From a virus, in the IMG/VR virus record IMGVR_UViG_3300009414_000057, positions 1 through 27,280 of that record: 27,280 nucleotides of DNA; one strand, written 5' to 3'. The position numbers and the translations under genes were made by a program. The notes under the pieces are model-generated. The model ran no database searches. It saw nothing but the letters and a program-made list of their open reading frames with translations, and was not told the DNA's origin. Positions 4,939 to 24,785 of the stretch are shown in pieces. Positions within the stretch are counted from its first letter, which is position 1; each line of letters opens with the position of its first letter.

Positions 4939-4940
4939 AG

Positions 4941-5399: not shown

Positions 5400-8300
5400 G
5401 CTGGCATCACCGCGCTGCGGTTAATCTTTTTGGGCTGCCTTCCGCCAGTACGCGCATTACGCACATCCTGCATCATGACATCCAGAATATCAGCTCCTGC
5501 ATCTGAACTGCCATCACCGAGTCCTGACACCACATCAGCGGCTACAATATACTCCCCGGGTGAGACCGCTATCTCCTGCGCCTCTCCGATAACACCCATG
5601 ACCTCATCATCCATCCCTGCACCAGCCCCTGAAATTACACCTTCTGTCTGTGCTTCCGGGTTACCGGCCACCGATTTAAGAACGGCATCCCTCAACTGCT
5701 GAAACGCCTCTGCCCCATACTCTGCAATGAACTGCTCGATAACCGCATCTGAATCTTCAATGTTGCCCTTGATCGCCTCTATCGTCATGTCAACCAGCTC
5801 AGGGTAATCTGTTTCAACGGTTTCCTCGACAAAGGTCTCTTCCACCACCTGTTCCGGCATTGGAGCCTCTACCGGAATATCCGCAATACCACCGGCCTGT
5901 AAATATACGCGCCCTGCTGGGGTCATGAACTGGCGTGTACCTACCCGGCCTCCAGTAGCCGCCGCGCCCTGACTAACGGCAGCATAGAGAGCCTGAACAG
6001 TTTCAAGGGGAATATCGAGGGCAGCCGCCACATCCTCTGCGGCTAAATCAACATCTATCGCCCCAGCGGCAAAATCCAGAGCCTGCTCTTGGGTATAAGG
6101 AGGCTCTCCATAATTGTCGGCCACAAAATCTCGGATATTCTGCTGCTGCTCCATCATATTGTCGTACTCGGCAGTAGCATAAGCCGCCTCAAGGGTTCCG
6201 GCATCATCCCCGATATAACCCGTTCCTAGGGTATCCCATGCCTCAGTCTCAGGCATCTGCCCAGCATCCGTAGCAGTAGTGTCACCAATTATGGTGGCTA
6301 TCTGGTCTTCAGTTACTGTTGGGACAGTCGCTGCGCCTTCAAGGGTGCTAGTGTCAATCGCAGCATTGTATGTATCACCAGCTTTCTCGGTACTTATCTG
6401 ATTCACAGCAGCCAGAAAATCATCCACACTCATCCCGTAGTAATCCGCAATCTGCTGGGCAGATGCCTCACCATCCATATAAAGATTCCAAACTGCATCA
6501 GCCTCCGCTTCAGAATAATCGCCATCCACCTCACTAGCGGGTGTTATTTCATTCAGCGCGGTCTGCCACGCTGGAGTATCGTCATCAACAACAGTCGTAT
6601 CATCAACAACAGTTGTATCATCAACAACAGTCGTATCATCAACAACAGTCGTATCATCAACAACAGTCGTATCATCAACAACAGTCGTATCATCAACAAC
6701 TGTGGTGTCATCAACAACTGTGGTGTCATCCTCTAGAGAGTCTAGGTAAGCCTGAAATTGGGTTGCAAACGAGCCATCAAATGCACCGAAGGTTCCCATA
6801 ATGGCCGCATCACCTTCATCCGAACTAGCTTCCAAAAGACCAGCAATACCAGCAGCTTCCTCATCGGTTAACGTACCGTCAGCCAGATACGAAGCGACAG
6901 TGCTATTTGTCCAGCCCGGTTGTACGTCATGCCTAGTTCCAGAATCATCATAAAGATAGTCTGTATCGTCAACTACGACAGGGGTGTCATCAACAACAGT
7001 GGTGTCTGTAGTGTCCCCTAGAGAGTCTAGGTAAGTTTGAAATTGAGTGGCAAACGAATCATCAAACGCACCAAAGGTTCCCATAATGGCCGCTTTGCCT
7101 TCTTCTGAACTGACGTCCAAGAGACCAGCAATACCAGCAGCTTCCTCATCGGTTAAAGTCCCGTCAGCCAGATACGAAGCGACAGTGCTATTTGTCCAGC
7201 CGGGCTGATCTTCATATACATTTCCAGCAGCATCGTAAAGCACGTTGCTAGGGGTTAGAGTCTCAACAACAGCGGTGTCTGTGGTGGTTCCATCATCAAC
7301 AACAGTGGTTCCATCATCAACAACAGTGGTTCCATCATCAACAACAGTGGTTCCGGCACCAGTAAGGGTGTTGTAGTAGTCCATCAACTCAGTAAGAGTC
7401 ATGCCGTAGTAGTCAGCTATCTGCTGTCTATCAGCTCCGCCAGCAATAAGATCAACAATCGCATCCGCCTCTTCCTGAGTGTAGTCACCGTCAACATTGG
7501 GGCTAATCGACTGTAGCTGGGTCAATAAGTTGACCCCAGCGGTCGAAGTGAGAGTGTCATCAACAATATCAGGGTCGTCACCACTAAAGATGGTTGTTGT
7601 ATCTGCCGGATCACCGGCAGTAATCACTGTATCGCCTGCGGTCGTTTCCTCTATCCCTGCGGCAAGATTACTAATACCACCCCGCGCACCACTGAACTGG
7701 CTGAAGATGCTGTCAAAACTCGCCAAGGTACGATCTTCGGGTGCTAAACCCTCTATCTGGTCATAGAACGCCGCTAATTGCTCTTCGTTCAGACCATACA
7801 TTCCAGCCAGATAATCCGATGCCCCACCACCGAACAGGTCATAGCTGCGATCAAGCTCCGGCTCTTCCACCTGCTCGAAGAAATCAAATTCTTTTTCAAA
7901 ACCATGCCGGTAATCAGGAGGAGCCTGTTGCTCAAACTTACCACGCAGGAAGGACTGTTGCTCTGCCCCTGAACCGGCTACTGTATTTACAGAATAATCA
8001 CCCGTCAAAGGGTCAATCATTGTAGTATTACGGGGGCGAGCGTAATTTCCTGTTGAGTGATCGTCAGGGTCACCGGGTAAGTGCGTATGGCCATTTATCG
8101 CCCCACCACCGTTGTAACCAACTATGCCGCCTGCGGCTGACTTAAACGGATTCTGGTAAGGGTTTGTCCCGCGAGTTCTGGAGGCCACTTCCCGTGCGTT
8201 ATGCAGGATACCCTCGAACCTGCGGTTCTTGGCAGCCTGATCTCGTAAGCCACCCTTTCGCAAATCCTCCATAAATTCCTGTTGTTCTACGTTTGCCCTC

Positions 8301-9067
8301 GTCCCTGCTCCAAGTGCGATAGGAAGAGAAGCCATTGGGTTTTTCAGTTCCTGACCCATTGCTGCCAAGCCTTCACCGCTAAAGGTTGCTCCCAACCTCT
8401 CTCCAACACCCATGTCAGCATACCCCTGAGCCAGCTTGGCCTCCGCTCCCTGAAGACCCGAATAGGCATCTGCATACCCCTGCTGTGCAGGAGAAAATTG
8501 TGTAATCCCCGCCGCTTCTTGAAAGCGAACATTAGTAGGATCAAAAGGATCATAAGAAGGGGGGATAATAGGGTTAGCAGCCTGCCCCGCTAAAGTAGAT
8601 TCCATCACAGCCTCACTTGGAATGTACCCAGCAGGAACAGCTTCCCCTGCCGTAGCCAAAGCCGCTTCGGTTCCGGCCACATTAGATAATTCAGAGGATA
8701 AACCCTCTGCCGTTGTTGCGCCCGCCCCAAGAAGCTTACCTAAACCAAAACCAGTAACACCACTTATCAATCCTTTCTCGAAATCCCCACTTTCTGCCCA
8801 TGTTGCAAGACCCGCACCCAAGGCGCTGCCCCAAGCAGCACCGCCAGCCAAAGCTCCCCCCGCCAAGCTGCCAAAAATTGGCGCAAGGAAAGGCAGGAAT
8901 GCTTCAGGCTGACCAGTAACAGGGTTTATGGTTAGCTCGCCTGTCGGGGACATCGCTGCCAGACCACTCACCTCGGCAGGATTCATGTGGACAAGGGTAC
9001 TGTCCCCGAACCTGCCGTAGTCGGATAGCTGGTTTGCCGTTCTCTGTAATGGCGGCTGCATATTCAT
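5396..9067 (-). CDS. Large repeat-containing internal virion/ejection protein candidate
   Basis: The product is 1223 aa. Residues 20-60 (GDSTLVHMNPAEVSGLAAMS, then GELTINPVTGQPEAFLP) match the start of large marine phage virion proteins. Residues 59-115 are Gly/Ala-rich and hydrophobic (LAGGALAGGAAWGSALGAGL), able to enter a membrane. Residue 312 onward has AAGGIVGYNGGG. The centre is repetitive: TTVVDDG x3 (about 574-594), a 63-residue unit in two copies (about 621-683 and 716-778, WTNSTVASYLADGTLTDEEA), and TTVVDD x8 (781-828). Helical 'QQIADYYGM' units flank these. The C-terminal SPGEYIVAADVVSGLGDGSS is shared with other marine phage late proteins. No enzyme domain is visible. Ejection or core protein is the best inference; tape-measure function is less likely without tail tube genes. 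Confidence 0.75.
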   Translation of the reverse strand: MNMQPPLQRTANQLSDYGRFGDSTLVHMNPAEVSGLAAMSPTGELTINPVTGQPEAFLPFLAPIFGSLAGGALAGGAAWGSALGAGLATWAESGDFEKGLISGVTGFGLGKLLGAGATTAEGLSSELSNVAGTEAALATAGEAVPAGYIPSEAVMESTLAGQAANPIIPPSYDPFDPTNVRFQEAAGITQFSPAQQGYADAYSGLQGAEAKLAQGYADMGVGERLGATFSGEGLAAMGQELKNPMASLPIALGAGTRANVEQQEFMEDLRKGGLRDQAAKNRRFEGILHNAREVASRTRGTNPYQNPFKSAAGGIVGYNGGGAINGHTHLPGDPDDHSTGNYARPRNTTMIDPLTGDYSVNTVAGSGAEQQSFLRGKFEQQAPPDYRHGFEKEFDFFEQVEEPELDRSYDLFGGGASDYLAGMYGLNEEQLAAFYDQIEGLAPEDRTLASFDSIFSQFSGARGGISNLAAGIEETTAGDTVITAGDPADTTTIFSGDDPDIVDDTLTSTAGVNLLTQLQSISPNVDGDYTQEEADAIVDLIAGGADRQQIADYYGMTLTELMDYYNTLTGAGTTVVDDGTTVVDDGTTVVDDGTTTDTAVVETLTPSNVLYDAAGNVYEDQPGWTNSTVASYLADGTLTDEEAAGIAGLLDVSSEEGKAAIMGTFGAFDDSFATQFQTYLDSLGDTTDTTVVDDTPVVVDDTDYLYDDSGTRHDVQPGWTNSTVASYLADGTLTDEEAAGIAGLLEASSDEGDAAIMGTFGAFDGSFATQFQAYLDSLEDDTTVVDDTTVVDDTTVVDDTTVVDDTTVVDDTTVVDDTTVVDDTTVVDDDTPAWQTALNEITPASEVDGDYSEAEADAVWNLYMDGEASAQQIADYYGMSVDDFLAAVNQISTEKAGDTYNAAIDTSTLEGAATVPTVTEDQIATIIGDTTATDAGQMPETEAWDTLGTGYIGDDAGTLEAAYATAEYDNMMEQQQNIRDFVADNYGEPPYTQEQALDFAAGAIDVDLAAEDVAAALDIPLETVQALYAAVSQGAAATGGRVGTRQFMTPAGRVYLQAGGIADIPVEAPMPEQVVEETFVEETVETDYPELVDMTIEAIKGNIEDSDAVIEQFIAEYGAEAFQQLRDAVLKSVAGNPEAQTEGVISGAGAGMDDEVMGVIGEAQEIAVSPGEYIVAADVVSGLGDGSSDAGADILDVMMQDVRNARTGGRQPKKINRSAVMPA
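6583..6726 (-). repeat. 18-bp tandem repeat, 8 copies
   Basis: Plus-strand unit CATCAACAACAGTCGTAT begins at 6583 and continues without gaps for eight units. Units 1 and 3-6 are identical, unit 2 has one C-to-T change, and units 7-8 read CATCAACAACTGTGGTGT. It encodes TTVVDD in frame, so copy changes keep the frame. The near identity implies recent expansion. Confidence 0.95.
6733..6922 (-). repeat. 190-bp direct repeat, copy A (partner at 7018-7207)
   Basis: The segment begins CTAGAGAGTCTAGGTAAG and is matched at a constant offset of 285 bp by 7018-7207 with scattered substitutions. Long stretches such as AGACCAGCAATACCAGCAGC are identical. Both copies encode the unit WTNSTVASYLADGTLTDEEA to AIMGTFGAFD, so the gene grew by internal duplication. 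Confidence 0.9.
7018..7207 (-). repeat. 190-bp direct repeat, copy B
   Basis: Partner of 6733-6922, same length and orientation. It lies between the 21-bp and 18-bp arrays of the same gene. Confidence 0.9.
7286..7348 (-). repeat. 21-bp tandem repeat, 3 copies
   Basis: The plus-strand unit GGTTCCATCATCAACAACAG plus T is present three times with no differences, encoding TTVVDDG. It is related to the 18-bp unit by one extra Gly codon. Confidence 0.95.
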
Positions 9068-9076
9068 AGTTTAATC

Positions 9077-9406
9077 CTAACTTGTTTCCACGCCGAAAAG
9101 GTTAAAACTCATGCCGGTTCCTCCGGCATAAACTTTAACCACATCAGCCTGGTTAAGAGTCATTCCGATAATTATCGCCAGCGAATCATTGGCTGGCACT
9201 TCTTTGTCATAGTAAAGGTATTGCTTGACATTGGCGACTGCGCCCTCAACATGTACACTCACACGAAAGGTCTCGGCTGAACCGTTCCGGTTACAGACCA
9301 CCAGAGAGCTGACAGTCGTTAAATTAAGGTCAGGCACGGTATAAAGCGTTTCACTTGTGGTCGCCGCTGCATCAAGCTGTCCAAGTACCTTGATCGCATC
9401 AGCCAT
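9077..9406 (-). CDS. Beta-rich virion protein
   Basis: The product is 109 aa: IKVLGQLDAAATTSETLYTV, then TVSSLVVCNRNGSAETFRVS, and QYLYYDKEVPANDSLAIIIG, ending VYAGGTGMSFNLFGVETS. The order 'K-V-L-G-Q...A-A-T...L-Y-T-V-P...S-S-(I/L)-x-V-C-N-R...F-R-(I/V)-S-V...Y-Y-D...P-x-N-D-(T/S)' is a familiar small virion protein of environmental phages, similar to distal tail or decoration proteins. GGGAG lies before the ATG inside the end of the preceding gene. No enzyme motif is seen. Its location before the ejection-protein genes suggests a tail or head structural role. Confidence 0.75.
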   Translation of the reverse strand: MADAIKVLGQLDAAATTSETLYTVPDLNLTTVSSLVVCNRNGSAETFRVSVHVEGAVANVKQYLYYDKEVPANDSLAIIIGMTLNQADVVKVYAGGTGMSFNLFGVETS

Positions 9407-9605
9407 TAACCGCTCCCATCAGCAAGAACTGAAACCGTTTCATGGCCAAGGATTCTTCCTTGCCAACCTTGGTTGTTACTTCATTGAGGTTATCCTGAAC
9501 ATCCGCGAAAGATCGCTCAAGCGTTCTTCGCATTGTCAGTTCGTTCTGGAAGTCATAAGCAGTATTGGCGGTAGGCAATACTACTGAATTGGTTTTTTGT
9601 GCCAT
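9399..9605 (-). CDS. Small conserved helical protein
   Basis: The product is 68 aa: AQKTNSVVLPTANTAYDFQN, then MRRTLERSFADVQDNLNEVT, ending RFQFLLMGAVNG. It is mainly one long amphipathic helix and could form a coiled coil. The start shares a base with the stop of the nozzle gene (TAATG) and has a strong GGGAGG site. It overlaps the next gene by 8 bases. Short proteins with 'TMRR(T)LE' helices accompany nozzle genes in marine phages; function unknown, structural or chaperone role possible. Confidence 0.65.
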   Translation of the reverse strand: MAQKTNSVVLPTANTAYDFQNELTMRRTLERSFADVQDNLNEVTTKVGKEESLAMKRFQFLLMGAVNG

Positions 9606-11455
9606 TAACGCCTCCCGTCTGCACGAACATCAAACCTCATCTCTCCTAGCGTCCACCCATAACCTGTTCCGGTACTGGCTACCCTGATGATCGATTCCCG
9701 CGTTCTCGCCCGGATAAAGGACTGGTTGGAAGTGGACGTAACAGTCGAGGTTGCGAGCGTACTACTTGAATTCAATGGAAAATCTTTACCCTTGAAGGTA
9801 ACCGTCATTGAGGCACTCCCAGTAGCCCCGCGAAACTGAAAGTCAGGGATCAGGCGACTCACAAACATGAACTGTTCACCATCCCCTATAGGGATGCCAC
9901 CTGATTCTATATAGGCTTCCATCGCACTACCGTCATCATCATAACCATTTTCATGGTTGTAAAGATAATTCTCATTGCTAGAAACTATGTTGGTGGCTGC
10001 AATGGGATACGTGCGGGTATTAGCCGGTATCCACGCAGCCCTGTCCAGAGTGCCTATCGCCCACGAATCCTCCAGATAATTATAACTAACATAATTGGTA
10101 CATTCGGTGTTACCGCTTCCTACAGGATAGAACCAGTACACCTCGGAAAAATCGAGACTGGCAGTAGCGAAAATCTTGAACTCCTGAGCGGTATTTATAT
10201 TGCTGAAAACATAATCCAGCACAGTACACTTGAGCCTCTGTACCGAACCGTTATAGAAGTAGAAGCCTCCTCTGTCCATGAAGAAGACCATATCACCTGC
10301 GTTAGTGGCGGCATTGGGTGACACCATCGACAAGCCTTCGTTCACCACATCAAACTCGTAGGTGAAAGGCGCTCCCGAAAATCGCATGGAGTGGATACTG
10401 TTATTGGTAAAGATCAGTATTTCCTGCCGTGTTTTAATTGCCCCGATAATGTAGGAGCCAGCAGTCAGCGTTACGCCTCCAGAGGTATTGGTAGATGTAG
10501 GAGTCCAGTCAAACGGACTCTCCTGATCTGACCAACGCACAAACAACGGATCGAGGGTGGTACTGCCAATAGGGTTAGACCCAAAACAAATCGTGTGACG
10601 ATCCGTATCTGACACCATCACCTGCAACGCCAGAGTTGGAGGACTCACTGCTCCTAACTTGTCAGCAAGAGCAATCCCTCTGGTTCCGGTTCCCACGCTT
10701 TCATCCCAGTAGTAGATACCACCACCACGAACACAAAAGAGAAGATCGTTACCGAAATTGTCCTGACTCCATAACCGGAGCTGGTTACCAGCGCCAATCG
10801 GCGTTGAACCACCCCAACCGGAACTGCCCCATGTGCCTGCACCGAACCCCGATGCCGCAACATAAGTGTTTAGCCCTGTATTGATCTGGTATTCCCCGAC
10901 AACAGCAGCGCCGCCATTGCCAGTATCAAGCGCGTTAGCTGTTACCGTAACCCCTAAAGTGTTTTTCGCCGTAATCGTGTATTCATTCGGATTAGTAATC
11001 TCAGTGATCTGGTATTCCTGATTCAACACCGCAGCGGTGATGTTTCCTCCCAAGGTAACAGCACCCGAATAGGTAACAAAATCATTAACGACTGCCCCAT
11101 GATTCGTGTTAGTAACCGTGAGAGTTGACGAACTTGTTGATGCCGCAAAAGTAACCGCTCCAGCAAGGGTGGTGGTTCGTATTGGAGTGACATCATTGTA
11201 ACCATCACCTACATTGATATAGAACTTCAGGTTCGTACCAAGACCAAGGTAATCTATAGCCGATTGAGCCACCCAGTCCAGCAACGACCGACATACCCCC
11301 AAGAAAGAGTTAACAGAATACTTAGCCCAGCCGCCGATCTGCTCAGGTCGGCCTTTACGAAAACGAATCTTGTCGGCATCGTACCAGCCGCTTCCAGCCG
11401 TTAGCTGAGTTCCTTCCCGATTCACACCCGGTTCAAATTCATACTTAACCAGCAT
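9605..11455 (-). CDS. Tail nozzle / DNA-stabilization-like protein (P22 gp10 or tail tubular B style)
   Basis: The product is 616 aa. Residues 1-45 contain FEPGVNREGTQLTAGSGWYD and IRFRKGRPEQIGGWAKY, the start signature of podovirus nozzle or stabilization proteins ('G-x-x-R-F-R-x-G-x-P-E-x-I-G-G-W'). Residues about 95-195 hold an inserted beta module (LTVTNTNHGAVVNDFVTYSG, then LNQEYQITEITNPNEYTITA) common in such tail proteins. The rest is propeller-like: SDTDRHTICFGSNPIGSTTL, EILIFTNNSIHSMRFSG and DMVFFMDRGGFYFYNGS. The C-terminus is a beta sandwich. This protein would close the short tail and hold the DNA. It follows the lysozyme gene with an AGGA site. The family call is by eye. Confidence 0.8.
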   Translation of the reverse strand: MLVKYEFEPGVNREGTQLTAGSGWYDADKIRFRKGRPEQIGGWAKYSVNSFLGVCRSLLDWVAQSAIDYLGLGTNLKFYINVGDGYNDVTPIRTTTLAGAVTFAASTSSSTLTVTNTNHGAVVNDFVTYSGAVTLGGNITAAVLNQEYQITEITNPNEYTITAKNTLGVTVTANALDTGNGGAAVVGEYQINTGLNTYVAASGFGAGTWGSSGWGGSTPIGAGNQLRLWSQDNFGNDLLFCVRGGGIYYWDESVGTGTRGIALADKLGAVSPPTLALQVMVSDTDRHTICFGSNPIGSTTLDPLFVRWSDQESPFDWTPTSTNTSGGVTLTAGSYIIGAIKTRQEILIFTNNSIHSMRFSGAPFTYEFDVVNEGLSMVSPNAATNAGDMVFFMDRGGFYFYNGSVQRLKCTVLDYVFSNINTAQEFKIFATASLDFSEVYWFYPVGSGNTECTNYVSYNYLEDSWAIGTLDRAAWIPANTRTYPIAATNIVSSNENYLYNHENGYDDDGSAMEAYIESGGIPIGDGEQFMFVSRLIPDFQFRGATGSASMTVTFKGKDFPLNSSSTLATSTVTSTSNQSFIRARTRESIIRVASTGTGYGWTLGEMRFDVRADGRR

Positions 11456-11458
11456 TGT

Positions 11459-11992
11459 TTATCCTGTATATGTCCCAGTTTTAATCATATCGGTAACTTC
11501 TATCGCTCGACCTTTTACCTGTTTTGCCCAGCGCGAATCAAGAAATTCAAGGGCAGCTTGGTCATGATCACCCATCTCCATATGACCAATAGCTTTTTTA
11601 AATCCTGCAAAACGCGCCCTGCCAAGATTGAAGTGCAAATTAATAATTGCATCACGCCTAGCACCTTCCTCCATCTCATTGAACCACGGATATTCACGAC
11701 TCAGTTCCTTGATCGTGCGGTCAATATCGTTCTGGAGCATATAGTCTATTTCATCTTCACTGATCCCCAGTCCGTGGTGCCTCTCACTGTCAGAAATATT
11801 CCTCCCGCAACCTATAGTTAAAATACCAAGGCTGTCTCGATAAGCATGGGTTTTTACCCCCTCATGCCGTTTAAGCATGGCAATCAGTTTATCCATATCG
11901 TCTTCTATTATTATCTCAACCAAAGAAGAATGTATGGGTACCGGATACAAACCTATCCCAATACCCACGAACAAAACCAAAAACCGGCACAT
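11459..11992 (-). CDS. GH24 lysozyme (endolysin) with N-terminal hydrophobic anchor
   Basis: The product is 177 aa. The catalytic core has the T4-lysozyme triad at canonical spacing: Glu44 in KRHEG, Asp53 in YRDSLG and Thr59 in LTIGCGRN (distances 9 and 6, as Glu11-Asp20-Thr26 in T4). The enzyme cuts the MurNAc-GlcNAc bond of peptidoglycan. Residues 4-20 (FLVLFVGIGIGLYPVPI) are hydrophobic, Gly-rich and only weakly polar, which is the style of a signal-arrest-release (SAR) anchor or a Sec signal. A second possible start is Met33, which would give a 145-aa cytoplasmic form needing a holin; neither start has a strong ribosome site. The gene begins two bases after the lipoprotein stop. Confidence 0.9.
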   Translation of the reverse strand: MCRFLVLFVGIGIGLYPVPIHSSLVEIIIEDDMDKLIAMLKRHEGVKTHAYRDSLGILTIGCGRNISDSERHHGLGISEDEIDYMLQNDIDRTIKELSREYPWFNEMEEGARRDAIINLHFNLGRARFAGFKKAIGHMEMGDHDQAALEFLDSRWAKQVKGRAIEVTDMIKTGTYTG

Positions 11993-11994
11993 TT

Positions 11995-12225
11995 TCAGTC
12001 ACAAATTTCAGCCAAGGTAGCCCAGTCCTGAGCCGACCACCCACTGGTATCTACCGTGGCAGGAACTTCCACCGTAATCCCGCTCAGGTTTCCACCAAAA
12101 ACTCCCGCTGTAGCAGCAGATTCGCCCCTCAAACAGGCAAACGCATTGTCTCCCTCGCTCACTGCAAGAGCTTCAATCTGTGTACACCCAACCAAAAGAA
12201 ATAATAAAGGGATTAGTCTACCCAT
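11995..12225 (-). CDS. Small lipoprotein in lysis-like cassette
   Basis: The product is 76 aa with a classic signal peptide II: MGRLIPLLFLLVGC, lipobox LVGC, lipidated Cys14. The mature part is 63 aa, carries two further Cys (residue pairs FAC and EIC) and ends GWSAQDWATLAEICD. A motif SGITVEVPATVDTSGW lies in the middle. It has GAGGTGGAGA before the ATG. The size and place just before the lysozyme fit an outer-membrane subunit of a spanin, but the Pro-rich or coiled region usual in Rz1 proteins is absent, and no inner-membrane partner is obvious. It could equally be an exclusion lipoprotein. Function unassigned. Confidence 0.7.
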   Translation of the reverse strand: MGRLIPLLFLLVGCTQIEALAVSEGDNAFACLRGESAATAGVFGGNLSGITVEVPATVDTSGWSAQDWATLAEICD

Positions 12226-12973
12226 TCTCCACCTCGTCCATCAGCTTATTAAGTTCAAGAGCTTCTTCTTTGCTTATCACCAATTCTTCCTTTGGTTTTG
12301 CTTGGTTAGTTAAAAATGTCTCTAAACGTTCCGTGTACCCTTCCATCAAATGGTCGGATACAATCCCGCTCAGACGCCGATCTTTTGTACGGAACGCCTT
12401 CTCTGGATCGATATAGTCTTCCCCTGAGTTGGCAAAGTAGAGCATGGTCTGGCTTTTGCTTGGCCCATAAAGAAATCTTGGGATGGTCGCAATCAAATCA
12501 GAAGCGTGAACGCAGGATAGCTGCTTATCCAGCTCCATAGGGCGCTTGAAGCCTTTGAAAAATGTATTGGGCTTACCAAACGCAACTAAGTTTAGGTTAG
12601 GATGTTTCCCGGTCAGCTTGGCTGCTGACAACTCAGCAAGAGCGCCTCCTAAACTATGACCGCAAAACAGGGTTCTTTTCTTGGGATGAAGGTGTTTCTT
12701 TATTTTACCAAAGACTGACAGATGGGCAGCGACGAACCCCCCGTGGCAAAGCCTCCCTGCATAGGGTACGGGTACTGCGCTTAGGTTGAATAGCCAATCA
12801 TGCAAACCTCTGCTTCCACGAAAACAAATGATGTCAATCGTTTTGCGCTTTACAATAAAAGCGGTTGTAGAAGTTAGTTTAGACTCAATCTTAATAGAGT
12901 TAGGTATCTGATCATTGTATGCTTTATTAGAATAACGACATGCGGTGTCCAGCAAAACTGGGTCAAGTTTCAT
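12218..12973 (-). CDS. Class-3 lipase (alpha/beta hydrolase)
   Basis: The product is 251 aa. All hallmarks of the lipase class 3 family are visible: FRGS at 51-54, DWLFNL at 59-64, CHGGF at 76-80, nucleophile Ser107 in GHSLGGA, probable Asp159 in ASDLIATIPRFLYG and probable His208 in VSDHLMEGY. The family hydrolyses acylglycerols or phospholipids. There is no signal peptide or TM. The C-terminal 30 residues are charged and helical (KPKEELVISKEEALELNKLM) and may bind a partner. It begins one base after the one-TM gene and overlaps the lipoprotein gene by 8 bases. Sample lines have about 38% G+C, lower than the phage average. In this position it could attack the host membrane at lysis, or be carried in the virion; neither is shown. 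Confidence 0.88.
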   Translation of the reverse strand: MKLDPVLLDTACRYSNKAYNDQIPNSIKIESKLTSTTAFIVKRKTIDIICFRGSRGLHDWLFNLSAVPVPYAGRLCHGGFVAAHLSVFGKIKKHLHPKKRTLFCGHSLGGALAELSAAKLTGKHPNLNLVAFGKPNTFFKGFKRPMELDKQLSCVHASDLIATIPRFLYGPSKSQTMLYFANSGEDYIDPEKAFRTKDRRLSGIVSDHLMEGYTERLETFLTNQAKPKEELVISKEEALELNKLMDEVENG

Positions 12974-12974
12974 T

Positions 12975-13220
12975 TTAGGGTTTACCGTTGAAGTTAAAAT
13001 AAGCCCCTGCTAACAGTGCGGCAAGAAACAACGTAGTGAACGCCTGAACAATGGTTTTACCTACTGTGCGCTTTGCCGAGCGAAAGGAATCGAGCAAATT
13101 CCTTAACTCTTTTACATCAACATTAGCATCGTCATCAGATAACCCCACATCACGTAGGGCTTTTTTAGCGCCAGCTTCGGCTGCCCTCTCAACCATCAGA
13201 GCCATCTCTTCTTCAGTCAC
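12975..13220 (-). CDS. Small one-TM protein (DUF6127-like), possible holin
   Basis: The product is 81 aa. The start is GTG at 13220, with AAGGGAG eight bases upstream; no ATG with a better site exists. Residues 1-50 are charged and helical (TEEEMALMVERAAEAGAKKA, then DVKELRNLLDSFRSAKRT). Residues 57-75 (IVQAFTTLFLAALLAGAYF) form one membrane segment close to the C-terminus. The pattern resembles small phage proteins placed in DUF6127, whose role is not established. Its position directly before a lipase, lipoprotein and lysozyme allows a holin or a membrane partner of the lysis enzymes. A single C-terminal TM with an N-terminal coiled helix would also suit a tail-anchored virion protein. Confidence 0.65.
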   Translation of the reverse strand: MTEEEMALMVERAAEAGAKKALRDVGLSDDDANVDVKELRNLLDSFRSAKRTVGKTIVQAFTTLFLAALLAGAYFNFNGKP

Positions 13221-13240
13221 AGTACTGCTCCCTTACTATG

Positions 13241-13633
13241 CTAAAGCCCGTCTAAGTCCGCATGGGTCGAACAAGCGTTAATAGCGGCAATGTTTTGATC
13301 TTTCGCATCTTTAGCGTCACTGACTGCTGCGGCATCACCGGACGCATCCGCCACCTCAAGCTGAGTCTGCTCATTGGCTACCTGCTGATATGCACTTTTA
13401 GCCTGACTTATTAACCCCTCTTTACGCTGGGCTATAGTCAAATCTTCCACACCGTAAACAATCTGTACCGGATCAGCAGTGAGATCAAACGTATGAGCAG
13501 TATAGATTTGCTTGCCATCAGTAATGTCAGGACGCACTTCAACGGCTGATTTCCAGCCAGCTTCCCCTTCAGGAGGCTGTGTATCCCATACCTGTGTTAC
13601 TTCGTTATCTACAACTTTTACATATAGAGCCAT
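13241..13633 (-). CDS. Possible tail-fiber assembly or fiber-associated protein
   Basis: The product is 130 aa. The N-terminal half is beta-type (YVKVVDNEVTQVWDTQPPEG, then AGWKSAVEVRPDITDGKQIY). The C-terminal half is a long helical, Ala/Gln/Asp-rich segment (IAQRKEGLISQAKSAYQQVA, then DASGDAAAVSDAKDAKDQNI) that could form a coiled coil. This order, a short beta domain mentioning the 'current value' of a tail part followed by a helix, is seen in small proteins encoded after tail fibers, some of which act as fiber chaperones. A strong AGGAGG site precedes the ATG. It is the last gene before the lysis-like cassette. The chaperone idea is inference from position. Confidence 0.6.
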   Translation of the reverse strand: MALYVKVVDNEVTQVWDTQPPEGEAGWKSAVEVRPDITDGKQIYTAHTFDLTADPVQIVYGVEDLTIAQRKEGLISQAKSAYQQVANEQTQLEVADASGDAAAVSDAKDAKDQNIAAINACSTHADLDGL

Positions 13634-13653
13634 AATAGCCTCCTGTTTAATAA

Positions 13654-14721
13654 TTAAGGTTCTTTTAACCCCGCCATATTATAAAATCCCATTGTGCAGG
13701 TCTTCCATGTAGTGAGCGCACCAACTTGAACTGGTGAGGAATAGTTAGTTGTATTACCTTGGCCTAATCGTCCAGTGCCGCCACTACCAAAGGCCCATAC
13801 AGTTCCATCGCTTTTAAGTACCGCACCAGAATACACCCCCCGAATACCCCCCTCGCCATTCAGGTCTGACCAATCAGTGAGCGCCCCTACTTGTACGGGA
13901 GAAGAATAATCAGTGGTATTGCCTTGAGCGTTTGCACCACTACCCCCATCGCCCCAAGCCCATAAAGTACCGTCAGTTTTAAGTGCAAGTGTGTTTTTGT
14001 AGCTAACCGATACATCACTCCAAGTAGTCAATGCTCCCACCTGAACCGGAGAACTTTTATTAACGCCAGTCCCGTCCCCAAGTGTACCGCCCGTACCTCT
14101 ACCCCACATCCAGAGAGTCCCATCAGTTTTAATCGCACCGCAATGTCTGTAGTTAGCTGTTACTTGCAGCCAATCAGTAAGTGCGCCGACTTGAACAGGT
14201 GAGCTTCTGTCAGTTGTACTCCCGTCACCTAGCTGCCCATAATTGTTTTTACCGCAAGTCCATAAAGTTCCATCGGTTTTAACCGCCGCAAAATAATAAT
14301 AACCCCCTGCTGCATTTAACCAATCAGTGAGCGCACCGACCTGAACTGGGGAAGAATAGGAAGTGGTGTTACCTTGACCTAATCCACCATTGCCTCCAGC
14401 CCCCCAAGCCCAGAGAGTACCATTCGATTTAACCGCCCAAGAACTGAACATACCCGCCGATATTTTCGCCGCCCAATCAGTAAGCGCCCCTATTTGTACA
14501 GGGGATGAAAGGCTTGTAGTATTTCCATGACCTAATTTCCCATTATTCCCTTCCCCCCAAGACCATGCAGTACCGTCAGCCTTAGCGGCCATCATGTGGT
14601 AATTTCCAGACGTTACCTGTAACCAATTAGTGAGTGCGCCTACTTGAACGGGTGAACTTTTAACAACAGTTGTGCCGTCACCTAATTCTCCGTGAACATT
14701 ATAACCCCAAGTCCAAAGCTC
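13654..14721 (-). repeat. Seven tandem RCC1 blade units (propeller 3)
   Basis: Seven units of about 150 bp, with one longer unit near the end (blade 6). With the two other arrays the window contains 21 blade units in total. Confidence 0.85.
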
Positions 14722-14880
14722 TCTGGGAATTACAGGCTTAGGCCACAGACCTTGTTTCTCGTAATCCGCTGCCTGATCCAGTGTCCAGATACCCGATGCA
14801 CTGCCACCTTCGCCGTCCGTAGGGCCGGTAACAGTAGGAGCAGTTTTGCTTATTATCCCTCCGGGCCATTTTCCGCTCAT
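13654..14880 (-). CDS. RCC1 seven-bladed propeller protein (propeller 3)
   Basis: The product is 408 aa. The N-terminal 53 residues differ from the other propellers: MSGKWPGGIISKTAPTVTGP, then a Gly/Ser linker and GIWTLDQAADYEKQGLWP. The latter 'G-x-W-T-L-x-Q-x-x-x-x-x-x-x-x-x-W-P' peptide is common in marine phage fiber proteins and is probably an attachment or trimer motif. Seven RCC1 blades follow at residues 54-408; blade 4 is LWTCGKNNYGQLGDGSTTDR and blade 6 is longer (NGEGGIRGVYSGAVLKSDGT). The start overlaps the fusion gene stop (ATGA) and has its own GGAGAG site. Location and modular design suggest another virion adhesin. Whether the three propellers form one mixed structure or alternative tips is not visible. 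Confidence 0.85.
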   Translation of the reverse strand: MSGKWPGGIISKTAPTVTGPTDGEGGSASGIWTLDQAADYEKQGLWPKPVIPRELWTWGYNVHGELGDGTTVVKSSPVQVGALTNWLQVTSGNYHMMAAKADGTAWSWGEGNNGKLGHGNTTSLSSPVQIGALTDWAAKISAGMFSSWAVKSNGTLWAWGAGGNGGLGQGNTTSYSSPVQVGALTDWLNAAGGYYYFAAVKTDGTLWTCGKNNYGQLGDGSTTDRSSPVQVGALTDWLQVTANYRHCGAIKTDGTLWMWGRGTGGTLGDGTGVNKSSPVQVGALTTWSDVSVSYKNTLALKTDGTLWAWGDGGSGANAQGNTTDYSSPVQVGALTDWSDLNGEGGIRGVYSGAVLKSDGTVWAFGSGGTGRLGQGNTTNYSSPVQVGALTTWKTCTMGFYNMAGLKEP

Positions 14881-16649
14881 TTAACTCTCCGTAACGCTTG
14901 CTTCTTTTCGCTTAGGGATTTCTTGATTCTGGCAAAAGGCGCTTTCCAATCACCGAATGTCTCTTGCCGCATTAATTTCATGGTGTCGTAGTAAGGGCAG
15001 GTATTGCCCTCCTGTGCATATAGGAAGTAAGGCATGACAGGGGTAACAACCCAAGTCTCAACGCCCATCGAAGCCGCTAAATGACTGACCGAAGTACAGG
15101 ACGAGATCACCAAGTCACATGATGCAGTAGCCTGTCTGGTGTCTTCCCAAGTATCTAGTGGAACTTTCTCAACCCACGGTGGACATTCCTCCACAGCTTC
15201 ATCGCGCTGCAAGGAGATAAACTCCGCATCTATACCCTTCACGGCGTTGAACATAAGTTCATAGGGGAACTTCTTGTGGTGTTCGTGTTCAAACATACTC
15301 TGCCCCTGCCAGCGCAGACCAATGCGCTTACGAAAGCCTCTTATGGCTTTGGGCTTGGTAATATAGGGCGTACCAGATAAGTCTTCTAGCTCGAAACCCA
15401 GCGGCACAACAGCAGACATACCCTGGACATAGAAGTCATGGTAAGTCCCAAAACACGCCTCATGCTGAACAACAGAGCTTACGCCCTCGACATCAACGAA
15501 CAATGACGCAAGTGGGCCAGAACAGGATACGATTACTTTACATCCGCGCTCGGCAATAGACTTGGCATAACGCACCTGATGGATTTGATCGCCCAGACCA
15601 CCCTCCAGATATAACAGCACTGTGCCTTTGGTCTTGCCATCCCACGGCTTGGTAGGGAGATCAGGGACTGTATTTCCAAATACCCCCTCTATTCGCCCAC
15701 GATCCATTAACTGATAACCTTTCTGTATCTCTCCCTGACGCAGTAAGTACCAACCACGGTTATAAGCCGCTCGATGGTTGTTAGGCTCATCCTGTTCCAG
15801 CTTCCGGCTTAACCGCCAGCCTTCGGTAAAGTTACCCATTCTGGACGCAGTTAGCTGGAGGTCTAGGTCATGCAATTCAGGAGTTGTGCGGGGTTTATCC
15901 AGCCAGAATTCAGGCTGACAGAAGGTAGTGTAATGATTCTTTAGTACGTCTTTGGGGTCTTCGTTGTGCTGCTTTGCAAGCACAGGCTGGATGTCGTGCA
16001 TACCTTCATAGCCATGAATCTCCTCGTCATCTTCCTGAACGCTAGTCCCGTCAATCGCCGTGAAGTCATAATCAAAATCAGGCAGGTCTAGGAACTCATG
16101 GATGCGAGCAAGCTGTGCTTCAGGGTCAGCCACAAGGTCTTCGTATTCCACTATGCAAAAGCACTCAGGTGCAAACTCATAACCAGTTTGTATAGCTATG
16201 TATGATGCCTTGAGATGGGTGCTAAGTATTCCAGAATAGATAAACTCGTCAAGGTCGTCAGGTTTAGCCACGCGCACAAATGAGGCCATGCAGTCAGGGA
16301 TGGAACGTACCGTGGCAACGATCTTGGGTTTCTCCCCAAGTACCTGTGTCATTGCACTGAGGATTGTCGGAATAGGCCAGCCTCGGCCCTTGTCTATAAT
16401 GACAGGCTCCTCAACATCTTCGTAGAACGTGTCAATCACCGCGCCCATAGTCTGGGACAGTTTGGTTCGCTCCTTGTCGTTCTCGCCAAGAAGTCCCTGT
16501 GAATGCCATACATTAGCCAACGCATCCAAAGCAAATACCACACCTGACGTTGTAGAAACATGGGTGTGCTTGTTCTGGTTGAGTATAGCCGCCAGTACCG
16601 TAGAACCGGAGCGGGGTACACCTGACATAAAATGTATTTGCTTTTTCAT
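14877..16649 (-). CDS. Sulfotransferase-TPR-glycosyltransferase (GT9-like) fusion
   Basis: The product is 590 aa from the ATG at 16649, which makes an ATGA overlap with propeller 2; a longer frame adds 20 residues that only mirror the upstream gene. Residues 5-200 look like a PAPS-dependent sulfotransferase: 5'-phosphosulfate loop SGVPRSGST (9-17), and a 3'-phosphate motif with Arg115 and Ser123 eight residues apart (VRSIPDCMASF), as in known sulfotransferases. Residues 275-325 are TPR-like (NNHRAAYNRGWYLLRQGEIQ). Residues 340-580 resemble a GT-B glycosyltransferase of the GT9/TPR-linked type: LYLEGGLGDQIHQVRYAKSI near the start, and DLVISSCTSVSHLAASMGVE (512-531) as the nucleotide-sugar part. 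No signal peptide or TM is visible, so it should act in the host cytoplasm. Its stop overlaps propeller 3 as ATGA. The substrate is unknown: a fiber protein or a host surface glycan. Confidence 0.8.
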   Translation of the reverse strand: MKKQIHFMSGVPRSGSTVLAAILNQNKHTHVSTTSGVVFALDALANVWHSQGLLGENDKERTKLSQTMGAVIDTFYEDVEEPVIIDKGRGWPIPTILSAMTQVLGEKPKIVATVRSIPDCMASFVRVAKPDDLDEFIYSGILSTHLKASYIAIQTGYEFAPECFCIVEYEDLVADPEAQLARIHEFLDLPDFDYDFTAIDGTSVQEDDEEIHGYEGMHDIQPVLAKQHNEDPKDVLKNHYTTFCQPEFWLDKPRTTPELHDLDLQLTASRMGNFTEGWRLSRKLEQDEPNNHRAAYNRGWYLLRQGEIQKGYQLMDRGRIEGVFGNTVPDLPTKPWDGKTKGTVLLYLEGGLGDQIHQVRYAKSIAERGCKVIVSCSGPLASLFVDVEGVSSVVQHEACFGTYHDFYVQGMSAVVPLGFELEDLSGTPYITKPKAIRGFRKRIGLRWQGQSMFEHEHHKKFPYELMFNAVKGIDAEFISLQRDEAVEECPPWVEKVPLDTWEDTRQATASCDLVISSCTSVSHLAASMGVETWVVTPVMPYFLYAQEGNTCPYYDTMKLMRQETFGDWKAPFARIKKSLSEKKQALRRVK

Positions 16650-17716
16650 TTTAGTTGAATCGCCATCCCTGTAGACTGAGCAACACTGGTGCTTGGGAGG
16701 ACACTCCATGTAGCAAGCGCACCGATCTGTACGGGAGAGCTTCTATCGGTAGTACTTCCATCACCTAATTGGCCCTTGTCGTTTCTACCCCAAGACCAAA
16801 TAGTTCCATCAGTTTTAATGGCGTGGGTAAATTTGTTTCCAGCCATTATCTTAGACCAATCGGTTAATGCTCCAACTTGGACAGGGGAAGAATAATTAGT
16901 TGTGTTACCTTGGCCCAACTTCCCATACTCTCCACTACCCCACAACCATAGCGTACCGTCAGTCCTTGTAGCCGCACCAACTCCATCATTGGTTTGTCCA
17001 CCAGCGGAAATAGTATCCCATGTAGTAAGTGCGCCTATTTGAACTGGTGAGCTTTTATCAACAGTGGTTCCATCACCCAATTGGCCTGTATAATTTCTAC
17101 CCCAAGCCCAAATAGTTCCATCAGTTTTCTTAGCCAATACCAAATATTTTCCGGCTTGTACTGCTTCCCATGTAGTGAGAGCGCCTACTTGAACCGGAGA
17201 AGAATAACTAGTTGTATTACCTTGGCCTAGTTGTCCAAATTCATTTTTGCCCCAAGCCCACAGAGTTCCGTCTGTTTTAAGGGCAATACCAAATTTATAT
17301 CCAGAGGATAGGTATAACCAATCAGTCAATGCGCCGACCTGTGTAGGAGAGGAACGAACCGTGGTATCACCTACACCTAACTGCCCGTTACCATTACCCC
17401 CCCAGCTCCATAGCGTATTGTCTGTTCTAATTGCACCACCGTGGTACTCACCCGATCCAAGTTGTAACCAAGTGGTAAGTGCGCCGACTTGGACAGGGGA
17501 AGAATAAAGAGTTGTATTACCTAGTCCTAAACATCCATTGGCTCCGCTACCCCACGCCCATAGCGTACCATCTGTTTTAATTGACGTTGAATATATATAT
17601 CCCGCTGACAGAATAAGCCAATCAGTTAGTGCGCCGACTTGGACAGGAGAAGAATAGGTAGTGGTATTGCCTTGACCCAGTTGCCCCTTATTGTTATATC
17701 CCCACATCCATAGCTC
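16646..17716 (-). repeat. Seven tandem RCC1 blade units (propeller 2)
   Basis: Seven units of about 150 bp, one lengthened by a longer loop in blade 5. The DNA for the common strand is similar to that in the two other propeller genes, so recombination between them is possible. Confidence 0.85.
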
Positions 17717-17797
17717 TCTAGCTGGGACAAACCATGTACCCGCACCCTCGGCTTGCATAACAGTGGGTAGCTTCCACTTACCTGAGTAATTAGGCAT
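16646..17797 (-). CDS. RCC1 seven-bladed propeller protein (propeller 2)
   Basis: The product is 383 aa. A short N-terminal module (residues 1-27, MPNYSGKWKLPTVMQAEGAG then TWFVPAR) carries the SGKW signature also found in propeller 3. Seven RCC1 blades follow at residues 28-383; the first is ELWMWGYNNKGQLGQGNTTT and the last begins IWSWGRNDKGQLGDGSTTDR. Blade 5 has a longer loop (SAGGQTNDGVGAATRTDGT). No FN3 domain is present, unlike propeller 1. A GAGGT site lies in the 32-bp gap upstream. The stop overlaps the next start as ATGA, which couples it to the sulfotransferase fusion gene. The role is probably the same as for propeller 1: a tail-fiber or receptor-binding component. No eukaryotic-type regulation of a small GTPase is implied by the RCC1 name. 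Confidence 0.85.
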   Translation of the reverse strand: MPNYSGKWKLPTVMQAEGAGTWFVPARELWMWGYNNKGQLGQGNTTTYSSPVQVGALTDWLILSAGYIYSTSIKTDGTLWAWGSGANGCLGLGNTTLYSSPVQVGALTTWLQLGSGEYHGGAIRTDNTLWSWGGNGNGQLGVGDTTVRSSPTQVGALTDWLYLSSGYKFGIALKTDGTLWAWGKNEFGQLGQGNTTSYSSPVQVGALTTWEAVQAGKYLVLAKKTDGTIWAWGRNYTGQLGDGTTVDKSSPVQIGALTTWDTISAGGQTNDGVGAATRTDGTLWLWGSGEYGKLGQGNTTNYSSPVQVGALTDWSKIMAGNKFTHAIKTDGTIWSWGRNDKGQLGDGSTTDRSSPVQIGALATWSVLPSTSVAQSTGMAIQLK

Positions 17798-17829: not shown

Positions 17830-18894
17830 TTAGGATGTTTTGACCGCTGAAAAGTTCGTACTGTTAGCCCATCGGTTCGATAGTACAACCCAAGTAGTAA
17901 GCGCACCGACCTGCACAGGCGAGGAACGGTTGGTCGTATCGCCTAAGCCTAGCGGCCCATACGTGCCGTTATAACCCCACGCCCATAAAGTACCATCGGT
18001 TTTTAGAGAGAAATTACAATTCGATCCAGACCCTAATTTTGACCAATCTGTGAGAGCGCCAATCTGAACAGGAGATGAATAGTTAGTAGTGTCCTCTTGG
18101 CCTAACTGCCCATAGTTGTTCTGCCCCCATGCCCACAGAGTACCATCAGTTTTAACAGATACTCCTCCTAGTTGTTGAGCAGTAATCTCACTCCAATCAG
18201 TAAGTGCGCCGACTTGAACAGGAGAAGATACTTTAGTGGTGTTTCCGTGACCCGTTGCGCCATTGTCACCATCCCCCCAAGTCCACAGTGTTCCGTCAGA
18301 TTTAACACCAAAGCTAGTACCAAAACCTGCTGAAATTTCTGTAGTCCAATCAGTAAGTGCGCCAACTTGTACGGGTGAAGAATGGTTGGTGGTATTGCCT
18401 TGACCCAGTTGCCCCTCATTGCTGCGCCCAACTGCCCAAAGCGTACCATCGGTTTTTGTGGCTATTATATGGAAAGCCCCTAGTGCTATTGCGCTCCATG
18501 TAGTAAGAGCGCCCACCTGAACAGGGGAAGAGTAATCAGTGAGATTGCCTTGTCCTAACTGTCCAAAGGCGTTTTTACCCCACGCCCATAGAGTGCCATC
18601 AGTTTTGACGGCTGCACAAAATTCGCTCCCCCCTGCCGCTACCGCCCAATCGGTAAGAGCGCCCACCTGCACTGGAGAAGAAAGGCTAGTAGTATTGCCA
18701 TGACCTAATCGACCACTACCGCCGCTTCCCCATGTCCATAGAGTGCCATCAGTTTTGACGGCTAACTGCATAAATTCACCACCAGAGGGTGTGGCCCAAG
18801 TAGTAAGAGCGCCGACCTGTACAGGGGATGAATAAGCGGTGATACTACCTTGACCTAACTGCCCATAAGCCCCTTCCCCCGTACACCAAAGCTC
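17830..18894 (-). repeat. Seven tandem RCC1 blade units of about 150 bp (propeller 1)
   Basis: Seven in-frame units of about 150-156 bp encode the blades. The segment for SSPVQVGALT is well conserved at DNA level, while the two loop segments per unit differ. The last unit stops at the 'AVKTS' position, so the ring is complete without an extra partial blade. Confidence 0.85.
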
Positions 18895-19242
18895 CCCCCC
18901 ATTAAAAATTGCAATGCTATTACTTGCGGCACTTATACCGCTTGGCCCGTAAGCGTTAGTAGCACCAACAGTAACAGTATAAGTTTGCCCTTTGGTTAAA
19001 CCTGTAACCACAACGGGAGAAGATGACCCGCTTGCGGTAAAGACCGCAGCAGTAACGGTGTCGGTAGCGAATGCCTCATAACTCGTTATTGCACCACCAC
19101 CCACATCCGAGGGCGCAGTAAAAGCTATAGAGATTCCGTCAGCCCCTGATTCCGATGCTGTTCCAATAGTGGGCGCATCCGCTACTAATAACGGATTGTA
19201 ACCGGGACGTATAAAGCCGCCGAGAGTATCGCCTATAGGCAT
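17830..19242 (-). CDS. RCC1 seven-bladed propeller protein with N-terminal FN3 domain (propeller 1)
   Basis: This protein of 470 aa combines two domains. Residues 1-21 (IGDTLGGFIRPGYNPLLV) may be the virion attachment peptide. Residues 22-112 form a fibronectin type III-like domain (AFTAPSDVGGGAITSYEAFA and VVVTGLTKGQTYTVTVGATN). Residues 117-470 are seven RCC1-type repeats of 50-52 residues on the plan LWxWG-x4-G-x-LG-x-G-x-TT-x-x-SSPVQVGALT-x-W-x(12)-KTDGT. RCC1 repeats fold as a seven-bladed beta propeller. There is no catalytic motif and no signal peptide. TAAGGAG lies six bases before the ATG. It follows the fiber gene and precedes two more propellers, so a receptor-binding or fiber-tip role is the best guess. 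The conserved SSPVQVGALT strand contrasts with variable loops. Confidence 0.85.
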   Translation of the reverse strand: MPIGDTLGGFIRPGYNPLLVADAPTIGTASESGADGISIAFTAPSDVGGGAITSYEAFATDTVTAAVFTASGSSSPVVVTGLTKGQTYTVTVGATNAYGPSGISAASNSIAIFNGGELWCTGEGAYGQLGQGSITAYSSPVQVGALTTWATPSGGEFMQLAVKTDGTLWTWGSGGSGRLGHGNTTSLSSPVQVGALTDWAVAAGGSEFCAAVKTDGTLWAWGKNAFGQLGQGNLTDYSSPVQVGALTTWSAIALGAFHIIATKTDGTLWAVGRSNEGQLGQGNTTNHSSPVQVGALTDWTTEISAGFGTSFGVKSDGTLWTWGDGDNGATGHGNTTKVSSPVQVGALTDWSEITAQQLGGVSVKTDGTLWAWGQNNYGQLGQEDTTNYSSPVQIGALTDWSKLGSGSNCNFSLKTDGTLWAWGYNGTYGPLGLGDTTNRSSPVQVGALTTWVVLSNRWANSTNFSAVKTS

Positions 19243-24010: not shown

Positions 24011-24198
24011 TATTTCTTGAACCCCTTCAAGGTCTTGGCAAGGTTAGCGCGTTTTCTGGTAGTGGGATTCTTCGATTTACTTAACTTCGTTAATTCCTTG
24101 CCACTTATTTTCTGGCCTTTTTTCACCCCAGCAGCTCTACGCAAGCTACCCGGCTTCTTGATCGCCTTCTGAATCCAGTTCTTTTTACCTCTTGCCAT
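24010..24198 (-). CDS. Small very basic conserved phage protein
   Basis: This 62-aa protein (NWIQKAIKKPGSLRRAAGVK, residues 7-26) has a high proportion of Lys and Arg and no acidic cluster. I recognise the WIQKAIKKPGxLR start from small proteins of marine phage late regions, but no function is established. A strong GGAGG site lies five bases before the ATG. The gene overlaps the HNH-like gene by 14 bases, and its stop shares one base with the next start (TAATG). The charge suggests binding to nucleic acid, perhaps inside the capsid. That is inference. Confidence 0.7.
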   Translation of the reverse strand: MARGKKNWIQKAIKKPGSLRRAAGVKKGQKISGKELTKLSKSKNPTTRKRANLAKTLKGFKK

Positions 24199-24415
24199 TT
24201 CGCCTCCGGTTAACTGTTCGTGAAGTTACTGCCAGGTTAGATCGTTTGTTGTTGTTTGGATTGCGGTCTTTGTGATGAACATCCCGCTTGTCGCCTTTTG
24301 CTACAGCTCCGGTTGCAAGCAGTTTATTTCTACCTGCATTACGACCGGCCCTACGCTTTTTCTGCACGGGTTTAGCATGGTAGTTCTTGTACTCGCTACG
24401 ATAATTTCTAGCCAT
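24185..24415 (-). CDS. Small HNH-like protein
   Basis: The product is 76 aa from the ATG at 24415 (a TTG lies one codon upstream). The N-terminal half is strongly basic (KKRRAGRNAGRNK, residues 19-31). Residues 46-61, VHHKDRNPNNNKRSNL, match the core of HNH nucleases: paired His, an Asp-x-Asn-Pro turn, Asn-Asn, then Asn-Leu. The last metal-binding His of the classical motif is not evident, since the tail reads AVTSRTVNRRRN, and no zinc-binding Cys pairs exist. It may therefore be a minimal or inactive HNH protein. Its position among head and connector genes allows a packaging-related nuclease or a virion DNA-binding protein. Similar short proteins are common in marine phages and are often just called HNH endonuclease. 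Confidence 0.7.
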   Translation of the reverse strand: MARNYRSEYKNYHAKPVQKKRRAGRNAGRNKLLATGAVAKGDKRDVHHKDRNPNNNKRSNLAVTSRTVNRRRNGKR

Positions 24416-24785
24416 CAAACTGCGCCTTGTAGGCTTGCTTAACCAAAGATTCTTTCTTTTCCCTGCGGTCTAGCTCTACACCGAACTCACGCGCAAATTC
24501 CTCAAGCTCCAGCTTCGTCTTCTTGTTAAGATCGGCTCGGCTTGTTTCTTCTACGAAAGTAACGGATTTAAGTGGAGGCTCAACTATTTCTTTTTTTTTA
24601 GGCGCTGCCTTCTTCTTAGGAGTCGAGTTTCCACCCATCTTCGCCAACCTTGCCTTGGCCTGGCTCTTCTCCATAAGATCAAAGACTGCAATGTCATACT
24701 CTCCATCTGCATTCTTTGAACCTATCTGGTAGACAGGGCGACCGTCACTGAAATTTCCGTTCTGAAATATCTCTAACTTAGCCAT
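24408..24785 (-). CDS. Lys-rich protein with HeH/SAP-like C-terminal helices
   Basis: This protein of 125 aa has three parts. Residues 1-50 form a compact beta/alpha start (IFQNGNFSDGRPVYQIGSKN). Residues 55-70 are a run of Lys, Ala and Pro. Residues 85-121 (ADLNKKTKLELEEFAREFGV, then ELDRREKKESLVK) have the helix-extended-loop-helix pattern of SAP/HeH/LEM-like domains, in which 'T(K)xELxxxAxxxGVxxxxxxxKxxLV' is typical. In phages such domains occur in small head or neck proteins and may touch DNA. An AGAGG site precedes the ATG. The stop codon overlaps the next gene by 8 bases. A DNA-binding role is inference from charge and fold. Confidence 0.75.
   Translation of the reverse strand: MAKLEIFQNGNFSDGRPVYQIGSKNADGEYDIAVFDLMEKSQAKARLAKMGGNSTPKKKAAPKKKEIVEPPLKSVTFVEETSRADLNKKTKLELEEFAREFGVELDRREKKESLVKQAYKAQFDG

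Follow-up and report, generated by a model that had tools for sequence, protein, structure and literature searches.

The window, i.e. the whole 27,280-nucleotide stretch of DNA analysed here (positions 1 to 27,280 of IMG/VR record IMGVR_UViG_3300009414_000057, from an aquatic virus of bacteria), represents the structural region of a tailed phage in which all major genes are located on the minus strand, comprising the major capsid gene (25897-26835), a tail adaptor and tail genes, three RCC1 propeller genes, and then lipase, lysozyme and further virion genes. The capsid protein is 52-72% identical to those of phages recorded for Synechococcus, Planktothrix, Pelagibacter (HTVC027P, HTVC023P) and Roseobacter (CRP-901/902), while the host of the window phage is not known. 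Elsewhere in the window, a class-3 lipase (12218-12973; PF01764, 9.7e-15) lies between a small possible membrane protein gene (12975-13220) and the lysozyme gene, suggesting a lipase in the lysis module, a 1223-aa virion-region protein (5396-9067) contains a run of TTVVDD repeats and two near-identical internal segments with only weak PHROG matches, and a small ORF (24185-24418) within the structural gene block carries an HNH-like motif (DVHHKDRNPNNNKRSNL) and possibly specifies a homing-type endonuclease. The locus of interest, a sulfotransferase-TPR-glycosyltransferase fusion gene located between two propeller genes, consists of the following features:

14877..16649, minus strand: sulfotransferase-TPR-glycosyltransferase fusion, 590 aa
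15894..16649, minus strand: sulfotransferase half (residues 1-252)
16599..16628, minus strand: PAPS 5'-phosphosulfate loop MSGVPRSGST (residues 8-17)
16281..16307, minus strand: 3'-phosphate motif R115...S123
15645..15893, minus strand: short TPR-like helical region (residues 253-335)
14880..15644, minus strand: predicted GT-B glycosyltransferase domain (residues 336-590)
15588..15599, minus strand: GLGD (residues 351-354), D354 being placed as the equivalent of the GT9/TibC catalytic Asp
15081..15113, minus strand: LVISSCTSVSH motif (residues 513-523), in which C518 replaces the GT9 Asp and H523 is kept
16646..17797, minus strand: RCC1 7-blade propeller upstream of the enzyme, ATGA overlap at 16646-16649
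13654..14880, minus strand: RCC1 7-blade propeller downstream of the enzyme, ATGA overlap at 14877-14880
17830..19242, minus strand: third RCC1 7-blade propeller, with an N-terminal fn3 domain
13241..13633, minus strand: small cassette protein (130 aa) without Pfam or PHROG match

The observation made in an earlier note, namely that a single 590-aa protein carries a PAPS-type P-loop, a matching Arg115/Ser123 motif, a TPR-like middle and a GT9-like C-terminal domain, and that its gene overlaps propeller genes by ATGA at both ends, was confirmed, although the note did not state that the ORF lies on the minus strand. The ATG is located at 16649 and the stop codon at 14877-14879, and while a longer in-frame ATG at 16709 would give a protein of 610 aa, the shorter start fits the ATGA overlap and the alignments of most relatives. 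The architecture is not a chance occurrence, as 80 relatives, most of them full-length and colinear (about 67-96% identity), were retained from a scan of IMG/VR.

Pfam searches assigned residues 1-252 to the PAPS sulfotransferases, with matches to Sulfotransfer_3 (PF13469; 1.9e-15, 58.1 bits against a gathering cut-off of 27) and Sulfotransfer_1 (7e-8), both above their gathering scores, and Foldseek returned the tyrosylprotein sulfotransferase TPST2 as the best PDB fold match (2.8e-7). Residues G10, R13, S14, G15, S16, T17, D86, R89, W91, R115, S123, E206 and H218 are invariant in 41 aligned homologues and most of them also in distant standalone phage and bacterial sulfotransferases; R13, G15, T17, R115 and S123 are invariant in 13 such distant sequences, in which G10 is also found. 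A Lys is present near the TPST Lys, but the catalytic Glu of human TPST2 is not conserved, the aligned residues being T33/T34, and the base is therefore probably another residue, for which the invariant E206 or H218 are inferred candidates. PAPS-dependent sulfate transfer was not assayed. Both halves of the protein are under purifying selection (dN/dS about 0.09).

The TPR is only suggested by sequence (TPR_17, E = 0.063, below cut-off), yet AlphaFold2 (AF2) models helical hairpins at residues 261-320, and weak TPR matches were obtained for distant relatives and for the family profile. No Pfam model recognises the C-terminal domain, with no hit to GT9 at E <= 0.1 and none to Glyco_transf_41, and a sequence search of the PDB with the glycosyltransferase profile found only designed TPR proteins and one chance hit. 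In contrast, an AF2 model built from 28 homologues (pLDDT 91.7, pTM 0.90) showed a GT-B fold, which Foldseek matched to WaaC (1.3e-5), TibC (1.4e-5), OGT (1.4e-5) and SPINDLY (all within 1.3e-5 to 2.1e-5), with TM scores of 0.44-0.56 over the GT9 matches; the coordinates were not inspected for ligand geometry. D354 is invariant in the 41 aligned relatives, the GLGD sequence with D354, and C518 and H523 in the second motif, are invariant down to 23% identity, and by analogy with Asp110 of TibC, the candidate catalytic base of that enzyme (PMC4358343), D354 is the likely base. With respect to the motifs typical of GT9, i.e. an N-terminal catalytic Asp within GD and a DTxxxH motif, D354 and H523 are retained whereas the Asp of the latter is Cys in all relatives, an outcome that, without a residue-by-residue alignment to WaaC, settles the matter of GT9 membership in neither direction. 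The replacement indicates a distinct subfamily whose donor cannot be predicted.

The flanking genes encode true RCC1 proteins, the propellers matching PF00415 at 1e-58 to 1e-70 with seven repeats each and phrog_4219 at 1e-43 to 1e-52. RCC1 proteins of phrog_4219 were found in virions of phage W70 by mass spectrometry (PMC11370258), and an RCC1-like protein of GAP32 is a structural protein by the same method (PMC5259590); the window propellers are thus tail-type virion proteins by homology, their presence in the virion of this phage not having been examined directly.

The association of the enzyme with propeller genes was found to be specific and recurrent. RCC1 propellers are present in 78 of the 80 IMG/VR loci, the two exceptions beginning at a contig end, and an RCC1 gene is immediately upstream in 54 of 58 and immediately downstream in 38 of 56 loci, most often with a 4-base overlap downstream. 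As a baseline, loci of the same phage family were selected by their tail-adaptor gene, and of 22 with at least 6 kb downstream, 21 have neither RCC1 nor enzyme while one has both (Fisher 1e-19, a value which, like the hypergeometric values calculated, is descriptive only as related loci are not independent samples). In the reverse direction, of 20 well-flanked loci selected for this RCC1 subtype 16 carry the fusion and 4 do not, and none of eight isolate-phage control loci with more distant RCC1-like proteins is annotated with this enzyme, although one (from an Aphanizomenon phage) sits among polysaccharide genes. The enzyme therefore nearly always has propellers, whereas propellers can do without the enzyme, as expected for an enzyme and its substrate.

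The same TPR-glycosyltransferase (TPR-GT) recurs beside RCC1 genes in other phage groups. In cyanophage S-SRM01 (Kyanoviridae), whose RCC1 proteins are gp335, gp337 and gp344, a standalone TPR-GT and a standalone sulfotransferase lie in one RCC1 cluster next to the long tail fibre gene, and its IMG/VR relatives repeat this arrangement, with RCC1 in 47 of 47 loci and a separate sulfotransferase after an RCC1 gene in 38 of these. This S-SRM01 cluster (L089, positions 9941-12902) also holds a 2OG-Fe(II) oxygenase and four proteins of unknown function between RCC1 genes, possibly further propeller-modifying enzymes. In BUCT-ZZ01-like phages the TPR-GT is fused to a C-terminal methyltransferase-like domain and follows a large RCC1 protein, with RCC1 genes in 72 of 80 loci, and in six loci (L171, L172, L174, L182, L219 and L220) ORFs with about 45 RCC1 blades, far more than one 7-blade propeller, directly precede a TPR-GT-methyltransferase gene. 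At one further locus (L138, positions 8071-9352) the TPR-GT gene is split into two overlapping ORFs, representing a frameshift or an assembly error. In the annotated phage collection, 3 of 4 distinct TPR-GT-positive phages carry RCC1, as compared to 39 of 50,697 records.

A contig from a bacterial metagenome-assembled genome (MAG; L086, positions 1981-14501) harbours TPR-GT, sulfotransferase and a homologue of the above methyltransferase (32% identity, 2e-39) as separate genes near CysD-type, CysN-type and APS-kinase genes, i.e. PAPS supply, and GT41 enzymes. No RCC1 gene was found in that contig stretch, which likely represents a sulfated-glycan or glycoprotein pathway without RCC1. The common logic is that of a glycosyltransferase plus a capping step (sulfate or methyl), fused in phages in two different ways.

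On one set of 21 loci with all four genes, enzyme distances correlate with those of the upstream propeller (r = 0.53) and of the small downstream gene 13241-13633 (Mantel r = 0.68), but not with those of the tail adaptor (r = 0.06), while backbone genes correlate with each other (tail adaptor versus the homologue of 9605-11455, r = 0.77). The enzyme averages 75% identity where propellers average 52-54% and backbone proteins mostly 44-56%, albeit that the enzyme set was chosen by similarity, which inflates its mean. Enzyme, propellers and the small downstream gene thus co-vary independently of the phage backbone and form a mobile cassette.

Having confirmed the fusion and its linkage, we consider it somewhat more likely than not that the gene specifies a dedicated two-step modification enzyme for the RCC1 beta-propeller tail proteins encoded next to it. 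In this view, translation late in infection would pass from one propeller gene to the enzyme to the next propeller gene, the TPR plus GT-B half would recognise the cytosolic propeller and transfer a sugar from a nucleotide-sugar to side chains on its repeated blades, and the sulfotransferase half would cap that sugar (or the protein) with sulfate from host PAPS, whereupon the sulfated glycoprotein would be assembled into the tail and change receptor binding, stability or recognition. What our analysis demonstrates is the predicted fold of both halves, the conservation of predicted cofactor and base residues, purifying selection and the repeated linkage to RCC1 propellers, and the virion location of RCC1 proteins of the same PHROG was demonstrated by others, whereas the propeller as substrate, the order of steps, the sugar and the benefit are inferences, the step from linkage to substrate being the weakest. 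The presence of the protein glycosyltransferases TibC and TPR-bearing OGT/SPINDLY among the nearest solved folds is in agreement with this reading; on the other hand, there is no biochemical evidence, no glycan on a virion protein was measured, the TPST Glu and the GT9 Asp are replaced, and WaaC, which modifies LPS, is as close in fold as TibC.

The interpretation offered in the earlier note, which suggested addition of sugar plus sulfate to a fiber protein or to the host envelope as an unusual phage decoration or receptor-masking system, is partly supported. The domain architecture, the conserved PAPS-binding residues and predicted glycosyltransferase base, and the specific link to propeller genes are all in its favour, but it was not shown that the propeller rather than the host envelope is the substrate, that both steps occur on one acceptor, or that there is any receptor-masking role. 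Two observations had been named in advance as evidence against it, and neither was made. Loss of catalytic residues was not seen at the PAPS-binding and predicted glycosyltransferase-base positions, which are invariant across relatives, although two residues typical of the nearest characterised enzymes are replaced as described above. Nor is the gene a widespread host housekeeping enzyme without a link to fiber genes, as a genome scan, of low sensitivity since just two peptide patterns were used, yielded only 6 loci, 4 of them colinear fusions next to RCC1 genes and so probably phage contigs binned with MAGs.

Attempts to identify the modified residue gave no clear candidate. Tyrosine sulfation of the propellers by a TPST-like enzyme is weakened by the missing catalytic Glu and by the absence of a conserved blade Tyr, and the N-glycosylation sequon NTT is frequent in blades of the fusion group but not consistent in the other groups. 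Among blade Ser/Thr or Trp residues, SSP and W32 are enriched in enzyme-linked propellers, but the control set consisted of just five proteins and similar residues may be common in bacterial RCC1 repeats, and they are not claimed here as modification sites. No blade residue was thus found that marks a site unique to enzyme-linked propellers.

The main alternative, which we regard as unlikely but retain, is that the enzyme adds a sugar and a sulfate to the host envelope (LPS core, O-antigen or capsule), masking receptors to exclude superinfection or to prevent re-adsorption to debris, and travels with tail genes because both deal with the receptor. GT9 enzymes such as WaaC act on LPS, phage glycosyltransferases are often read as LPS modifiers (e.g. 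PMC9602691), and S-SRM01 has further glycosyltransferase and sugar-epimerase genes in the same cluster. However, fixed adjacency and short overlaps with propeller genes in unrelated phages, together with co-variation with propellers rather than backbone, are more than a shared receptor theme requires, and it may be inferred that a late, tail-coupled gene is poorly timed for superinfection exclusion. Less likely again is that the enzyme builds or attaches a free sulfated glycan which the propeller carries as a bound ligand, or that it acts on another tail protein such as the 13241-13633 product, the link to the propeller being through assembly rather than covalent modification of blades. The 13241-13633 product, whose family has no known function, does show the strongest co-variation with the enzyme, yet in the S-SRM01-like and BUCT-like groups, where this small protein was not traced, RCC1 is the shared partner. 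Hitch-hiking of an enzyme with an unrelated role is improbable, for although the cassette moves between backbones and tail-fibre loci are recombination hot spots where useful cargo may accumulate, three separate arrangements (fused to sulfotransferase, fused to methyltransferase, and unfused) all keep RCC1. Finally, a catalytically dead, structural or chaperone-like protein for propeller folding, for which only the replaced TPST Glu and GT9 Asp would speak, is very improbable in view of the invariant PAPS and glycosyltransferase-base positions, the low dN/dS in both halves and the PAPS-supply genes beside the bacterial unfused pair.

Among characterised systems, the bacterial autotransporter heptosyltransferases (TibC/AAH; PMC4358343) share the GT9-like GT-B fold and an Asp at the position of the catalytic base, and TibC modifies a repetitive secreted adhesin, the enzyme here likewise being encoded next to its presumed substrate. 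The phage protein differs in having a helical TPR and a fused sulfotransferase in place of the N-terminal beta-barrel of TibC, in lacking a Pfam GT9 match, in the Cys replacing the motif Asp and in an identity of about 10%; the iron finger and dodecamer described for TibC were not examined, nor was heptosylation of a protein assayed, and the donor is not known. O-GlcNAc transferase and SPINDLY (GT41) also possess a TPR followed by a GT-B catalytic domain and act on proteins, but the phage TPR is very short and the catalytic domain is closer to GT9. TPST1/2 and the Sulfotransfer_3 family share the PAPS P-loop and 3'-phosphate Arg/Ser, whereas the phage enzyme has the invariant R89/W91/E206/H218 rather than the TPST Glu and is part of a fusion. 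Standalone phage sulfotransferases (S-SRM01 gp345, S-SKS1 and OM43 phages) belong to the same family, that of S-SRM01 being beside RCC1 and TPR-GT genes, but are not fused. Glycans on virion proteins have been reported for mycobacteriophage capsid and tail (Freeman et al. 2023, as cited in PMC12619734), there at capsid and tail-tube C-termini rather than RCC1 propellers and without mention of sulfate. In searches of the open-access literature we found no description of a sulfotransferase-glycosyltransferase fusion, of a link of either enzyme to RCC1 propellers, or of a sulfated sugar on proteins of viruses of bacteria.

A broader reading, possible although we consider it less likely than not, is that of a portable propeller-plus-finisher cassette, whereby phages of several lineages exchange RCC1 tail propellers together with a dedicated TPR-GT that glycosylates them and a swappable capping domain (sulfate in one group, methyl in another), giving sulfated glycoprotein receptor-binding tips. 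Sulfotransferases in phage genomes have no assigned role, their biological function being described as one that 'remains unclear' (PMC10580990). The present findings tie one family of them, and an uncharted TPR glycosyltransferase family, to one virion protein type, and render testable the question of whether phage tail propellers carry a sulfated (or methylated) sugar and whether this sets host range or stability. If true, sulfated glycoproteins would be a new kind of phage tail decoration, and RCC1 propellers would be a new class of glycosylated receptor-binding protein.
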